A stretch of 64,000 nt of DNA, taken from NCBI GenBank assembly GCA_021324155.1, contig JAJPJQ010000049.1, forward strand, positions 124,001 through 188,000. Direction: 5' to 3'. The DNA comes from Pseudomonadota bacterium (GTDB taxonomy: Bacteria; Desulfobacterota; Binatia; UBA9968). Positions 55,804 through 63,741 of the stretch are shown piece by piece (position 1 is the first letter of the stretch; each line of letters opens with the position of its first letter). The position numbers were made by a program, and so were the translations under genes. The notes under the pieces are model-generated. The model was not told the DNA's origin and made no database searches. It worked only from the letters and a program-made list of their open reading frames with translations.

Positions 55804-57027
55804 CTATCGCGCCTTGCGCACGCCGGTGAACGAATCGAAATAAACGACCTCCGACGCTTTTTCTTGCGGCACCACGCCTTTGGGCCGTTCGCCCTTCTGC
55901 GCCGCGGCGATCGCCTCGCGAACGATGCGGCGAAACATGATGACGCCCTTGTCGGAAGTCGCGAGGCGCTCCTCGCGCTCGCCGAGAAGCCCCTGCGTCG
56001 ACTGGCTCATGATGTCTTCCTGGCGCACGTTGCCTTTGAAGGGCATGTACTTCCGGCTGTCGTAGGCTTTGACTTCCTGCTTCGGCACCTCGGCCGCGCG
56101 CATCGCCTTCAGCTTCTCGAAAAATTGCGGGTCGGAGCCGGTGTAGTAGTTCACCGTGTAGATCGTGAAGTGCTCGTCGTCGTTGGGGGTGAGGAACAGC
56201 ACGTGCTCGCACTGCGAGCCTTCGGTCATAAGCTTCACCGCGTCAACCTTCGCGTGAACGAATTCCGTATCGCCGACTTGAATGATGCTCGGCAGCGCGA
56301 GACTCATCGTATCGACGAACTCCGTCCCGGGCGTGGGGCCGGGCTTGGTCATGACGCCCTTCATTCCGTAGTCGGTCTCGACGAATTGGAAATCCGGCAT
56401 ATCGGTGTAGCTGAAGAACTGATCGCCCCACGCCTGCTCGCCATAGCCCGTATGGCGGTGGAGAATGCAGATGTGACACGGATCGGCGGAGTTCTCGAAG
56501 AAGTTGAACCAATTGTAGTCGTTGGTGCGCACCGGCTCGATCTGCCGCATGCCGCCGCGGTCGACGAGGCACGAGTAGCGCGGCAGCGGCGGCGCCGGCT
56601 GCGGGCCCAGATAGGCGAAGATGAGGCCGCCAAGCTCCTGTACCGGATACGAGAGGTGCTTCACTTTTTGGCAGAAAATGCTGTCCTTCGGCTCGGCCGG
56701 CTGCTCGAGGCATTGGCCGCTCACGTCGAAGAGCCAGCCGTGGTACGGGCAGCGAATGCCGCGGTCTTCGATATCGCCGTATTCGAGCGACGTGCCGCGG
56801 TGCGGGCAGTGAAGACCGACGAGACCGAGACGGCCGTTCAGATCGCGGAACAATACGAGCTCTTCGCCCAAAACTTTAACGGCCTTCGGAATATCGTAGA
56901 GCTCTTCCGCCGCGCTGACGACGAACCAATATTTTCTCAGCCATTCGCCGGCCGGCGTGCCGGGGCCGACGCGCGGAATGTCCGCGAGCGAAACCTGTTT
57001 TAATTTTCTCGCGCTGCTTGTCTTCAT
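55804..57027 (-). CDS. Rieske (2Fe-2S) aromatic ring-hydroxylating oxygenase
   Basis: A 407-residue Rieske oxygenase. Cluster ligands C74/H76 in LHCPHRG and C93/H96 in RCPYHGW; mononuclear iron D182/H185/H190 in ADPCHICILH. The N-terminal LADIPRVGPGTPAGEWLRKY and the long EEREERLATSDKGVIMFRRI region are close to the 38913 copy. The unusual Cys pair in the DPCHICILH iron motif is not seen in the other two. Reductase and ferredoxin genes are absent. It lies between UbiD 57044 (16-base gap) and the DapA-family gene. Confidence 0.93.
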   Translation of the reverse strand: MKTSSARKLKQVSLADIPRVGPGTPAGEWLRKYWFVVSAAEELYDIPKAVKVLGEELVLFRDLNGRLGLVGLHCPHRGTSLEYGDIEDRGIRCPYHGWLFDVSGQCLEQPAEPKDSIFCQKVKHLSYPVQELGGLIFAYLGPQPAPPLPRYSCLVDRGGMRQIEPVRTNDYNWFNFFENSADPCHICILHRHTGYGEQAWGDQFFSYTDMPDFQFVETDYGMKGVMTKPGPTPGTEFVDTMSLALPSIIQVGDTEFVHAKVDAVKLMTEGSQCEHVLFLTPNDDEHFTIYTVNYYTGSDPQFFEKLKAMRAAEVPKQEVKAYDSRKYMPFKGNVRQEDIMSQSTQGLLGEREERLATSDKGVIMFRRIVREAIAAAQKGERPKGVVPQEKASEVVYFDSFTGVRKAR

Positions 57028-57043
57028 GAATCGATCTTCGCAA

Positions 57044-58420
57044 TCAGCTAAGGCCGTATTCTTTCCAGCGCCTGAGCACCTCCGCGCGCATCTCCTCGGT
57101 CGGCTCGGCGACCTGGCCGCGAAATCCTTCCTTGATCGTGCAGTCGGCCATCATTTTCGACGTGACGCCGTCTTTGGTGGCGGAAGGCTCGAGGCTGCTC
57201 GTGATCGAGCGCGGGATCACGAACATGTCCGTCGCCGGCTGAAAGCGCGTCGTCATGGCCCAGAGAATCTCGTTCGGATCGTAGACGTTCACGTCCTCGT
57301 CGACGACGATGACGTGCTTCCACTTGCCGCTGCGCGTGTACAGCGACGATGCAAGGAGATTATTCATCAGGCCGGGGCGGATCAGGCGCTTTTCCACCTG
57401 GAGCACAAGCACGATCGAGACGCCCCACGGCGGCGCGTAGGCTTTTTTCAAGACCGGATACGCCGGCTTGAGCTCCTGATAGGCGGCGACGCCGTAGGTG
57501 AGCGCGTCGATATACAAATGCTCGTGCGGCGGCTTGCCGAGCCAGATATTGTGATAAATCGGATTTTTCCGGTGCGTGATCGCCTTGATCGTCATGACGC
57601 GCTCGTTCGGCACCATCTGCGTCGTGTAGCCGCAGAACTCGCCGAACGGCCCCTCGTTGCCGGTCTTCGCCGGGATCGTCATCTCGCCTTCGAGAACGAT
57701 CTCGGCGAGCGCCGGCACTTCGATATCGACGGTGCGGCACTTGACCACCTCCACGGCTTCGCCGACGAGGCCGCCGGCGATCGCGAGCTCGTACACGCCG
57801 ATGCGCGGCTCGAACTGGGAGGCGACGTAGACGGCCGGCGGCACGCCGATGCAAACCGCGACCTCAAACGTTTTCTGGCCGCGCTTTTCCGCGTTGCGGA
57901 ACATGTCGTGGCCGTCGTGCCCGGGAGTGAGGCGGAGGTTCACCTCGTTCTTGTTGTTGAACATCATCCGATAGATCCCCATGTTCATGCCGTACTCGGG
58001 ATCTTTGATGATGACGTGGCCGGCGGTGATGTACGCGGCGCCGTCGCCGGGATTGTTCGTGCAGATCGGGAGCTTGGTCAGGTCGACCTCGGTCCCTTCC
58101 ATCACGACCTCCTGGCACGCGCCTTTGGACACGAGGCGCGGCGCGATCGCGTTGTCGGCGCGCTTCACCGTCTCTTCGAAAACGTTCTCCGGCGTCAAGC
58201 CGAGGGCCATCGCGACGCGCTTTTCGCCGAACAGCAGTTGTCCGACGACCGGAATTTTCGAGCCTTTGACGTTCTCGAACAGCACCGCCGGGCTGCCGGG
58301 GCGCTCGTTCAAAATTTTGCAGATCGCTCCGAGCTCGTGCTTCGGATCGACCGGCGCGCTTATTTGCTTGAGCTCGCCCTCGCGCTCGAGGACGTCTAAA
58401 AACTGACGCAAATCCATCAT
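57044..58420 (-). CDS. UbiD family (prenylated-FMN-dependent) decarboxylase
   Basis: A 458-residue UbiD-type enzyme with an intact catalytic set: R151 in MGIYRMMF and E256/E261 in NEGPFGEFCGY. The N-terminus MDLRQFLDVLEREGELKQIS is typical of the classical UbiD group and differs from the 33916/50041/63755 set, so this copy may act on a different acid. Two adjacent ATG codons (58420 and 58417) are possible starts. It is the first gene of its minus-strand operon, divergent from the LysR gene at 58515, whose product probably controls it. Confidence 0.93.
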   Translation of the reverse strand: MMDLRQFLDVLEREGELKQISAPVDPKHELGAICKILNERPGSPAVLFENVKGSKIPVVGQLLFGEKRVAMALGLTPENVFEETVKRADNAIAPRLVSKGACQEVVMEGTEVDLTKLPICTNNPGDGAAYITAGHVIIKDPEYGMNMGIYRMMFNNKNEVNLRLTPGHDGHDMFRNAEKRGQKTFEVAVCIGVPPAVYVASQFEPRIGVYELAIAGGLVGEAVEVVKCRTVDIEVPALAEIVLEGEMTIPAKTGNEGPFGEFCGYTTQMVPNERVMTIKAITHRKNPIYHNIWLGKPPHEHLYIDALTYGVAAYQELKPAYPVLKKAYAPPWGVSIVLVLQVEKRLIRPGLMNNLLASSLYTRSGKWKHVIVVDEDVNVYDPNEILWAMTTRFQPATDMFVIPRSITSSLEPSATKDGVTSKMMADCTIKEGFRGQVAEPTEEMRAEVLRRWKEYGLS

Positions 58421-60038: not shown

Positions 60039-61382
60039 CTAGCCGGCGGACATCGCGTCGAAGATGGCGCCGCCGAGCGTGGGGAAAACGTAATGCGCGG
60101 ACGCGAGAGTCGAGCGCGTGACGCCGCCGAGAATCGCCGTCGAAGCGATCTGGATGATATCCTCGGCCTCGGCGCCGATCACGTGTACGCCGAGCAAGCG
60201 GTCGCTTTTCTCGTCGTAGATAATCTTGACGAGGCCTTCGGCCTCCTCGCGCACGCCGGCGGCGGGATTGGAGCTGAACGGCATCCTACCCGCTTTGACG
60301 GCGGCGCCCGTCGCGCGCGCCTGCTTTTCCGTGAGTCCCACCTGGCCGATCGCCGGGATGGTGAAAACCGCGGTTGGAAAAACCGTGAAATCGACTTTGC
60401 GGTGATTGCCCTTCACGGCGTTTTCTGCCGCCAGCACGCCTTCGTACCACGCGACCGGCGTATGCTGGTGCTGCCCCGCCGCGTCGCCGGCGGCGTAGAC
60501 GTTGCCATTGCTGACCGACTGCAGATGTTCGTTAACCTTCACGGCGCTGCGGTCGAGCTCGATGTCGGCTTTTTGCGGTTCGAGCGCCGGCGCATTCGAC
60601 GGCCGGCCGGTCGCAAGCAGCACCTGATCGGCGGCAAAACGCTGAGACCGGCCGGCTACTTCGGCTTCGACGCTTTTATCGTCGCCGATTCGCTTCACTT
60701 TGGCGTCGGTCACGATTTCTATCCCCGCCGCCTTGGCGATTTCGAGGAGCGATTTGCGGATATCGTCGTCGAGCGCGGGCGCGATCTCGGAACCCGCCTG
60801 AAGAATAGTCACTTTGCTGCCGGCGCGCGCGAGCGCAAAGCCGAATTCCAGGCCGATGAAACCGCCGCCGATGACGACGAGCTGCTTCGGCTGCTGCTTT
60901 AAATGGATCAGCTCATCGCTCGTGATCCCGCGCTCGGCGCCGGGGATTCCGGGCCGCGAGGGCTTCGAGCCGGTGGCGATAACGAATTTGTTGCCCGAGA
61001 GTTTTTTGCCGTCGACGGCGATTTCCTGCGGACCGGTGAACTTGGCTTCGCCGCGGATCACCGATATGCCCAATTTTTCGAGGCCGCGCTCTTTTCCCTC
61101 CGACCAACTGGCGACGAGGCGGTCCTTGCGCTCGATGACTGCGGCCCAGTCGAAAGCGATATGCTCGGTTCCCTTGAGACCCAACCGGCCGGCGTTGCGC
61201 GCGCGCCAGTAAAGCTCGACGGTGCTCACGAGCACCTTTTTGGGGATTCAACCGCGGGCGAGGCAGGTGCCGGCGAAGCTCTCCTCTTCGACAATCGCCG
61301 TGCGGGTGCCCAGCTTCACTGCGGCTTTGGCGGCGTTAGTGCCCGCGGTGCCGCCGCCGATAACGATTAGATCGTAATCCAT
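60039..61382 (-). CDS. candidate selenoprotein: FAD/NAD(P)-dependent disulfide oxidoreductase with Cys-x4-UGA active site
   Basis: A 447-codon pyridine nucleotide-disulfide oxidoreductase (dihydrolipoamide dehydrogenase/mercuric reductase type), if an in-frame TGA is read through. MDYDLIVIGGGTAGTNAAKA (1-20) binds FAD, VVIGGGFIGLEFGFALARAG binds NAD(P), and VYAAGDAAG is the second FAD motif. The active site, normally GTCxxxGCxPxK, reads AGTCLARG-TGA-IPKK: C40, then TGA at codon 45 in the position of the second redox Cys. The SECIS-like hairpin at 61221 supports selenocysteine. The C-terminal HPTxxE dyad reads FPTLGG, so catalysis differs from GR. Annotation from 61235 would lose the active site. 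Confidence 0.72.
61221..61236 (-). promoter_or_regulatory. SECIS-like stem-loop after the in-frame UGA
   Basis: In the sense direction GGTGCT-CGTG-AGCACC forms a perfect six-base stem with a CGUG apical loop. The 11 bases 61237-61247 separate it from the UGA (61248-61250). Established work on the E. coli fdhF element places the upper stem-loop 11 nucleotides after UGA and needs a G early in the apical loop. This hairpin meets both, though the bulged U of fdhF is not seen. Confidence 0.55.
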
Positions 61383-61403: not shown

Positions 61404-62576
61404 TCACGCGTGTCTAGGGATGTGATACGTAACGGAGCCGGCCTTCTCGGCGCGGAGCGAGGCTTCGAGCGCGGTGTCGATGATCGGATGATCGGGGTCG
61501 CGCATGACGTTCAGCGGATCCTCGCCGCGGCGGACTTTTTCGATCTCGTTGCGGAGCATGTCGCGCAGCATGACGACGCCGTGATCGGAAGTCGCTAGGC
61601 GCTCGCGCGCGCGGTTGGCGATCGGGCCCTGCGTCTCCCACGCCATGAAATCCTGCCCATCGACCTCTGTCATAGTATACCTGGCGACGGGATGAGCCCC
61701 GTTCGCCGGCACCTTGAACGGTTTCCGGTAGTCGACCGGCACCGCGTCGCCGTTCGTGGGCTTGGGGCCCTCGCTGAACGGAACGAAGTGGAGATAAACC
61801 ACCCAGGTGTGCTCGTCATCGATCGGCACGCGGATCTGTGTGCGGTTCGCCTGGCGCAGCAGATTGGGGAAGATGATGGGATGCTCCTCCATCGTCCCAT
61901 CGGTAAAACAGCGCCGCTTCATGATGCCGTAGGGCACCTGGTAAAACTCATACTTTTCCAGGTCGTCGATCGTGCCGCGCGTCGTGCCGCGCACGGTGAA
62001 GCCGTTCGTCACGAGCTCCTGATGCAGAATATGCAGGTGCGTCGTGTCGACCGAATTCTCCATCGCCTGAAGCCAGTTGCAGTCTAGCGTCGGCAGCGCG
62101 CGAATCCAATGCCAGCCGTCGGTCCGCGCCCAGACATCGTATTTCGAGATCACCGGCGCGGGCTGCGGGCCCATATAGGCCCAATAAAGCCCGGCGAACT
62201 CCTGCGCCGGATAGGCTTTCTGTTTAACGGTTAAATGGAAGTTGCTGCCCTTCGGCTCCGCCGGACATTCGAGACAATTGCCTTTCGTGTCGTAGAGCCA
62301 GCCGTGATAGCAGCAGGAAATACCGCGCTCCTCGACGCGGCCATAAGAAAGCGACGCCCCGCGATGCGAGCAGCGGTCCTCCAAAAGACCGACGCGTCCC
62401 TGCTTGTCCTTAAACAGGACCAAATCTTCGCCGAGGATGCGCACGAACTTGACCGGCTTCTCCTCGGTAATATCCGAGGCGATCGCGATCGGATGCCAGT
62501 ACCGGCGCAGCAGCTCGCCCGCGGGCGTCCCGGGTCCGACGCGCGTAAACATCTCGTTTTCTTCAGCTGTCAGCAT
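61404..62576 (-). CDS. Rieske (2Fe-2S) aromatic ring-hydroxylating oxygenase
   Basis: A 390-residue Rieske oxygenase of a different branch from the other two. Cluster ligands C69/H71 in DRCSHRG and C88/H91 in SCCYHGW, with an extra Cys before the second ligand pair. Mononuclear iron D177/H180/H185 in VDTTHLHILH. Late sequence AWETQGPIANRARERLATSD is typical of phthalate-type oxygenases. The start at 62576 follows ggaggtgat; the longer frame to 62753 lies in the divergent promoter. It is 21 bases upstream of the candidate selenoprotein start, so the two may be co-transcribed and the flavoprotein could be a redox partner (speculative). Confidence 0.92.
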   Translation of the reverse strand: MLTAEENEMFTRVGPGTPAGELLRRYWHPIAIASDITEEKPVKFVRILGEDLVLFKDKQGRVGLLEDRCSHRGASLSYGRVEERGISCCYHGWLYDTKGNCLECPAEPKGSNFHLTVKQKAYPAQEFAGLYWAYMGPQPAPVISKYDVWARTDGWHWIRALPTLDCNWLQAMENSVDTTHLHILHQELVTNGFTVRGTTRGTIDDLEKYEFYQVPYGIMKRRCFTDGTMEEHPIIFPNLLRQANRTQIRVPIDDEHTWVVYLHFVPFSEGPKPTNGDAVPVDYRKPFKVPANGAHPVARYTMTEVDGQDFMAWETQGPIANRARERLATSDHGVVMLRDMLRNEIEKVRRGEDPLNVMRDPDHPIIDTALEASLRAEKAGSVTYHIPRHA

Positions 62577-62700
62577 GGGATCACCTCCGCCGCGATCCGT
62601 ATGTATAGCTTGACATCGCGGCGAATAAAAGAGCCGCCGGGCGCGGGAACTTTCTGACGCGAGAAGACTGTGATACAGAGCGACGTGGAGGTTTTTTCGC
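62577..62700. promoter_or_regulatory. divergent promoter region between a Rieske and a bicupin gene
   Basis: This 124-base gap separates oppositely transcribed genes. A TATACA element on the minus strand and a TTGACA at 62610-62615 on the plus strand are the only promoter-like sequences; neither has a well-placed partner. A gtggagg ribosome-binding site precedes the bicupin ATG. Confidence 0.35.
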
Positions 62701-63741
62701 ATGAAGCTACCGCATCGCGACCGCATCGACCTGGGTCCGTCGCCGTACGACACTTTCCTCGAGCGCGAGGCGATTCCCGTCGTGAAAGGCTATTTCGTCG
62801 AAGATTTGAAGGATCTCGAAGTGAAGCCGTGGAAGCGTATGGGCGCCCTCGGCTGCTACCTCAACATGGGCGGCCAGCAGGAAACCGACGCGTATGTCTG
62901 CGAGATACCCGCGGGCAGCCAGACGCTGCCGCAGCGGCATCTCTACGAAACGCTGATTTACATCGTCGCGGGCCGCGGCGCAACAACGGTGTGGCACGAT
63001 GAAAAGCGGAAGCGGACGTTCGAGTGGGGCGCCGGCGCGATCTTCGCCATCCCGCTCAACGTCTCGTATCAGCATTTCAACGTGTCGAACGAGCCGGTCA
63101 AATTTCTCGCCGGCACCAACCTGCCGCATTTACTGAATCTGTTTCACAACGAGGATTTCATTTTCCGCAATCCGTTCGAGTTCAGCGACCGCTTCGACAA
63201 CGATCCGGATTTCTTTCGCAAGAACGAGCGCCTCACGACAAGGAGCTGGGAGACGAACCTGGTTCCCGACGTGAATACATTCCCGCTCGATGAATATCCG
63301 ATGAAAGGCAAGGGCGTGAAGATCATGCGCTTCGGCATCGCCGGAACGGTCTACGGCTGCCATATCCAGGAATTTCCGACCGGCAGCCGCAGCCTCTTCC
63401 ACCGCCACGGGCCCGGCGCGATCGTCTGCGTCACGCAGGGAACGGGCTATGCGATGGTCTGGCGCGAGGAGGACAAAGAGCGCACGCGCTTCGAGATCCG
63501 GCCCGGCTCGATCTACTCGCCGGGCGACCTCATGTATCACGGCCACTTCAACACCGGGCCGACGCCGATGCGCCACTTCGCCATGCGCGGCCGGAGCCCG
63601 AAGTACAGCCAGGACCGCTATCGCCCCACGCTCCATGACATGCTGCCGCTCGACATGGAGCCGCCGGAAGTCCACAAAGAATATCTCGCGGAGATCGCGC
63701 GCAACGGCATCAAGGAAGCGGTCTCCATCGTCCAGGAATAA
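62701..63741 (+). CDS. bicupin (two cupin domain) protein
   Basis: A 346-residue two-cupin protein related to 41992. First cupin: ETLIYIVAGRGATTVWHDEK with PLNVSYQHFNVSN. Second: PTGSRSLFHRHGPGAIVCVT with YHGHFNTGPTPMRHFAMRG. The His groups QHF, HRH and GHF are candidate metal ligands. Compared with 41992 the first cupin has Ser-Tyr-Gln-His in place of Trp-His-Gln-His, so the first metal site may be weaker. Gentisate-dioxygenase-like ring cleavage or isomerisation is possible but unproven. A UbiD gene follows 13 bases later. Confidence 0.86.
   Translation: MKLPHRDRIDLGPSPYDTFLEREAIPVVKGYFVEDLKDLEVKPWKRMGALGCYLNMGGQQETDAYVCEIPAGSQTLPQRHLYETLIYIVAGRGATTVWHDEKRKRTFEWGAGAIFAIPLNVSYQHFNVSNEPVKFLAGTNLPHLLNLFHNEDFIFRNPFEFSDRFDNDPDFFRKNERLTTRSWETNLVPDVNTFPLDEYPMKGKGVKIMRFGIAGTVYGCHIQEFPTGSRSLFHRHGPGAIVCVTQGTGYAMVWREEDKERTRFEIRPGSIYSPGDLMYHGHFNTGPTPMRHFAMRGRSPKYSQDRYRPTLHDMLPLDMEPPEVHKEYLAEIARNGIKEAVSIVQE

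Follow-up and report, generated by a model that had tools for sequence, protein, structure and literature searches.

The analysed stretch of DNA, 64,000 nucleotides long and hereafter called the window, carries on its minus strand a gene for a putative FAD/NAD(P) disulfide oxidoreductase selenoprotein. The gene and its features are:

60039-61382, minus strand: selenoprotein gene, FAD/NAD(P) disulfide oxidoreductase, 447 codons including one UGA (Sec45, inferred)
61341-61358, minus strand: GGGTAG, FAD dinucleotide-binding motif, residues 9-14 (G9, G11 and G14 invariant in the alignment)
61263-61265, minus strand: TGC, Cys40, first cysteine of the redox pair
61248-61250, minus strand: in-frame UGA (TGA), codon 45, at the position of the second redox cysteine (by homology the one next to the flavin)
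61221-61236, minus strand: SECIS-like hairpin GGUGCU-CGUG-AGCACC, starting 11 nt downstream of the UGA and within the coding sequence
61233-61235, minus strand: GTG start of the conventional ORF, inside the hairpin
60084-60086, minus strand: Phe433, in the place taken by the catalytic His in GR/LPD and by the essential Tyr437 in GbsMerA
60041-60039, minus strand: TAG stop of the gene

As the sequence-only reading had described, nothing interrupts the frame between the ATG at 61382 and its terminator at 60039 except the TGA at 61250-61248, and the redox motif reads GTC-LARG-U-IPKK, in which U is Sec45. That reading had placed the UGA exactly at the second cysteine of a Cys-x4-Cys pair; this is borne out by the codon-45 column, which is Cys in all 29 Cys-type homologues and is among the 22 invariant columns of a 32-sequence alignment, so that the requirement of a bacterial selenoprotein for an in-frame UGA at a conserved Cys is satisfied. 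Its argument that such a placement exceeds chance is supported by the invariant Cys column and by the same codon in six genomes of one family. A mechanical ORF search returned the conventional ORF at 60039-61235 (GTG start, 398 aa, without the active site), as had been foreseen for gene callers. GGGTAG lies 5' of the UGA and would therefore be missing from a product started at this GTG.

We identified the gene in five further genomes from four other genera among the 25 same-family genomes examined, the window's included. Orthologues in G010, G019, G008, and G006 are full length and 65-70% identical, while that in G014 is a contig fragment; two orthologous loci (L009, L010) are contigs of public groundwater 'Deltaproteobacteria' MAGs. 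Each orthologue has exactly one in-frame stop, a TGA at the same codon (six genomes, five genera). Sister genomes with the gene thus show UGA and not Cys in the homologue column that the sequence-only reading had wished to see aligned, and the other disabling mutations that would have refuted it were sought in these copies without any further stop or frameshift being found. A Cys form of the window clade was looked for and not found. In most orthologue pairs dS reaches ~1 or more. Upstream of the UGA, dN/dS is about 0.08-0.21 (unsaturated pairs only, as some pre-UGA dS values are saturated); downstream it is about 0.07-0.21. Since purifying selection acts on both sides, the 44 pre-UGA codons are coding and joined to the remainder, and the selection values together with the UGA in six genomes argue against a recent nonsense mutation, gene decay, or an error in a single genome. 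That the orthologues keep the UGA and show coding selection 3' of it satisfies another criterion for a bacterial selenoprotein. The tight DNA pattern GTCxxxGUxPxK was also scanned over 395 genomes of the phylum and 148 of the class; three further matches (G430, G315, G014:C461) were rejected as chance, their frames being full of stops. A search of viral contigs gave no match.

The read-through protein matches Pyr_redox_2 (PF07992, 5e-61) and Pyr_redox_dim (PF02852, 9e-28) of Pfam over its full length and so meets the domain criterion of class I flavoprotein disulfide reductases, but not their Cys-x4-Cys criterion, having the variant Cys-x4-Sec. Its AlphaFold2 model has a mean pLDDT of 94.5 and a TM of ~0.9 to LPD, MerA, and GR structures. 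Identity as LPD, GR, or MerA was ruled out, the protein being under every curated cut-off: 369.8 vs 408.8 for LPD (TIGR01350), 324 vs 480 for GR, and 339.5 vs 454.5 for MerA (TIGR02053). The earlier label 'lipoamide dehydrogenase/MerA-like' therefore holds at the level of the superfamily and fails as a family assignment. FPTLGG replaces the HPTxxE motif (His-Glu dyad), so the LPD/GR criterion is not met, and neither is that of the GbsMerA type, whose Tyr437 and Asp47 are replaced by Phe433 and Ile46. The match to TIGR03385 covers residues 133-428 only (97 bits vs a cut-off of 579), and the UGxP motif of the selenoprotein CoA-disulfide reductase is not present, the window motif being UIPKK. Cys40 is the sole cysteine in the window protein and in the four other full-length orthologues, and all five lack a MerA-type C-terminal Cys pair or other relay. 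In the window protein, Cys40 and Sec45 are thus the sole redox-active chalcogens.

Two other proteins have UGA at the same second redox cysteine. One, from the same order (G025:C570), reads GTCPLRG-U-DPKK; its closest PDB entry is GbsMerA (5e-131), it is 54-55% identical to plasmid-borne Cys enzymes, one encoded next to merT and merP, and its gene neighbours in a mer/ars-like cluster (L125 = G025:C570:1-4453) are MerT-like (below cut-off), a CopZ-like metallochaperone, YHS, and arsenate reductase-like. The G025 genome contains selA and tRNA-Sec. This GbsMerA-type enzyme is a candidate Sec mercuric reductase. The other is a flavoprotein of the window's own genome (G000:C46:2915-4318, L119), which reads GACVNYG-U-TPTK, retains HPTxxE, and has its nearest Cys relatives, 46-47% identical, in the same family. 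It represents a second, separate Cys-to-Sec change that is only probable, because the UGA form was seen in one genome only and the hairpin is not significant. In a maximum-likelihood tree with Sec treated as a gap, no fewer than three Cys/Sec changes are required; grouping all Sec proteins in one clade was rejected (AU p 3e-7), as was a Sec clade of the window clade and G025 (p 6e-54).

DNA of G025 and of the window clade has CCCAAAAAGGTGCTGGT after the UGA in common, with single-base differences in some members. The stretches L125:2256-2285 and window 61221-61250 are near-identical, though the tree separates their Sec residues. Constraint on the hairpin (SelB binding) or local gene exchange could explain the common CCCAAAAAGGTGCTGGT; the two are unresolved.

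Near the window gene, at 55804-58420 and 61404-62753, lie genes for two Rieske oxygenase-type proteins and a UbiD-family decarboxylase, with a cupin protein at 62701-63741, an aromatic catabolism-like setting. Most orthologous loci instead have a glycogen-debranching-like and/or a nucleotide-transporter-like gene (names read from the sequence, not scanned). Because the neighbouring genes differ between genomes, the context gives no clue to the substrate.

Among the alternatives, a selenoprotein acting specifically as a mercuric reductase deserves the most consideration, although we regard it as unlikely. The best PDB sequence match of the window protein is a mercuric reductase (5x1y, 1e-76), and in the tree the window clade has the GbsMerA-type enzymes as its sister group (97/95). 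The G025 Sec protein also speaks for this function, through its 54-55% identity to GbsMerA-type Cys enzymes, one adjoining merT/merP on a plasmid, and through its MerT-like, CopZ, YHS, and ArsC neighbours. The window protein itself fits this function poorly: its score of 339.5 is under the MerA cut-off of about 454, it has no C-terminal Cys pair and no cysteine other than Cys40, no mer-like genes are found near its gene, and it has Ile where GbsMerA has Asp47 and Phe where GbsMerA needs Tyr437, the Y437F exchange having abolished GbsMerA activity (PMC10587081). The broader reading as a selenoprotein whose substrate is not known remains preferred; the best-fitting candidates are a small disulfide, an oxidised sulfur or selenium compound, and a soft metal ion.

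Bacterial SECIS elements are stem-loops directly downstream of the UGA that carry a G in a small apical loop (PMC1088965). Hairpins of the window clade have a 6-bp stem and a 4-nt loop (CGUG, GGUG, or GGUA), and the G in their apical loop meets the SECIS criterion. The hairpin is the consensus fold across the window gene and its orthologues, while for G010 alone the single-sequence fold favours another pairing. All six stem pairs can form in 7/7 Sec sequences, the distant G025 included; two of them are U-G rather than U-A where the protein has VLVGA in place of VLVST, and no double compensatory change occurs in the stem among these seven, so covariation alone is weak support. The folding z-score of the window hairpin is also modest (-1.69). 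More weight is carried by a synonymous freeze and by the Cys-homologue control: codons 47-54 rank at the top of 388 windows for identical synonymous codons (0.825 vs 0.461 overall; permutation p 5e-5), and six pairs at the same place can form in none of 103 distinct Cys homologues.

These observations bear on the possibility that translation stops at the UGA and restarts at GTG 61235, so that the product would have 398 residues and no redox pair and the upstream 44 codons would be a remnant or leader. Mechanical ORF calling yields exactly this 398-aa ORF and the orthologues have kept the GTG, but the GTG lies within a hairpin that is conserved only in UGA forms. Purifying selection, moreover, acts alike on the remainder and on the upstream codons, which supply the FAD-binding GxGxxG and Cys40, and from what is established about the fold, binding of FAD would hardly be possible for a protein that lacks the first beta-strand and the dinucleotide loop. 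We consider restart very improbable and retain read-through at UGA 45.

The sequence-only reading had proposed a search of the rest of the genome for selA, selB, selC, and selD, and all four were found in the window's genome (4.8 Mb, 98% complete), which fulfils the machinery criterion for a bacterial selenoprotein. selA, selB, and selD are clustered on one contig (G000, C16:68287-72650) with scores exceeding curated cut-offs. The tRNA-Sec (74.8 bits; also called as tRNA-SeC by ARAGORN) is 91 nt long with a UCA anticodon and lies near a contig end (C16:257-347). SelD itself has a single in-frame UGA (TRHVAAAG-U-AAKLGP) and is thus an independent, known selenoprotein of this genome. Of the five other gene-carrying genomes, every one has selA and four have selB and selD as well; the exception is G006, whose selA runs into the contig end, so that the other two genes are not expected there. 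A tRNA-Sec above cut-off was found in G008, G014, and G019 and not in G006 and G010, gene carriers with fragmented assemblies. Genome-wide reassignment of UGA to Cys or Trp, or its read-through by an ordinary tRNA, would agree with the Cys that homologues have at the replaced residue. Against it, 27 of the 73 window frames of >=300 codons end in TGA (a crude count, spurious frames included), the UCA-anticodon tRNA that was found is the 91-nt tRNA-Sec, and SelA/SelB/SelD are intact, which leaves this explanation exceedingly improbable. A pseudogene or sequencing error, for which nothing was found except the stop codon itself, can be practically dismissed, given that six independent assemblies have the same UGA and lack any further stop or frameshift, with dN/dS of about 0.1-0.2 and, for most comparisons, dS of at least ~1.

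We are thus highly confident that the gene encodes a real selenoprotein, a GR/LPD/MerA homologue with UGA 45 decoded as Sec. The claim rests on the level of sequence, conservation, and machinery, and decoding is inferred without peptide, read, or selenium-labelling data. The Sec machinery, the UGA conserved in sisters, and the conserved SECIS-like hairpin uphold the initial selenoprotein interpretation. In the mechanism that we propose, the SelA/SelB/SelD/tRNA-Sec system would insert Sec at UGA 45, aided by the hairpin 11 nt downstream. By homology, NAD(P)H would reduce the FAD, and the FAD would reduce a Cys40-Sec45 selenenylsulfide. Members of the GR/LPD/MerA superfamily have the second Cys in contact with the flavin and use the first for exchange with the substrate; Sec45 is inferred to take the flavin-contacting position and Cys40 to exchange with the substrate. 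As the protein has no other Cys, electrons must leave via the Cys40-Sec45 pair. It is a speculative inference that the more acidic and nucleophilic Sec may make up for Phe in place of His/Tyr.

Taken further, at least three separate entries of Sec into the class I primary redox disulfide may have occurred within one order, with the selenenylsulfide of the window clade replacing the lost acid-base role of His/Tyr; we hold this tentatively, as a proposition that falls slightly short of an even balance. If true, it would be a distinct catalytic solution within a textbook enzyme class, in a lineage for which no Cys-type member was seen. Redox biology uses flavoprotein disulfide reductases as model enzymes and regards their Cys-x4-Cys pair as invariable. 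With a natural Cys-x4-Sec at the flavin, the effect of selenium on redox potential, charge-transfer complex, and overoxidation resistance can be tested directly, for the G025 type with natural Cys relatives of 54-55% identity for comparison. The prokaryotic selenoproteome gains a family whose members gene callers start after the UGA, and 'truncated' superfamily members in Sec-using genomes deserve re-examination.

That a Cys-Sec pair would be unusual for this enzyme class, as first suspected, agrees with the inventory of 119 selenoprotein families of May 2026, whose whole table has no Cys-x4-Sec flavoprotein disulfide reductase (PMC13188914). A search by term found no Cys-x4-Sec class I enzyme in an 87-family review (PMC9312934). 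The window gene thus represents a genuine, conserved selenoprotein of a kind missing from the published inventory, as judged from open-licence literature; an unindexed or unnamed report is not excluded. The two reviews (PMC9312934, PMC13188914) include three types to be compared: CoA-disulfide reductases of the TIGR03385 type with the motif UGxP, sulfide quinone reductases of the NF049943 type with HxxU, and NF041115, a 'putative mercuric reductase' with UxxU. The TIGR03385 selenoprotein CoA-disulfide reductase/NADH oxidase is likewise an oxidoreductase that uses FAD and has Sec in place of a catalytic Cys, but differs from the window protein in family and motif. NF041115 is a metal-binding domain of 74 positions that resembles it in name only, and membership was rejected, as there is no match anywhere in the window's genome. 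GbsMerA (8k40/8k41; PMC10587081), a GR-like mercuric reductase ~33% identical to the window protein, shares with it fold, length, and the motif GTCxxRG[C/U]xPKK, and both are without the C-terminal Cys pair and the His-Glu dyad, but the pair is Cys41-Cys46 there and Cys40-Sec45 here. LPD (TIGR01350), GR, and MerA (TIGR02053) share the domain order, the Cys-x4-[Cys/Sec] pair, and the predicted fold, whereas the window protein lacks HPTxxE and has Sec at the second position. Animal Sec thioredoxin reductases belong to the same flavoenzyme superfamily and have their Sec in a C-terminal tail, added to an intact Cys-x4-Cys pair, whereas the Sec of the window protein is half of the primary pair.
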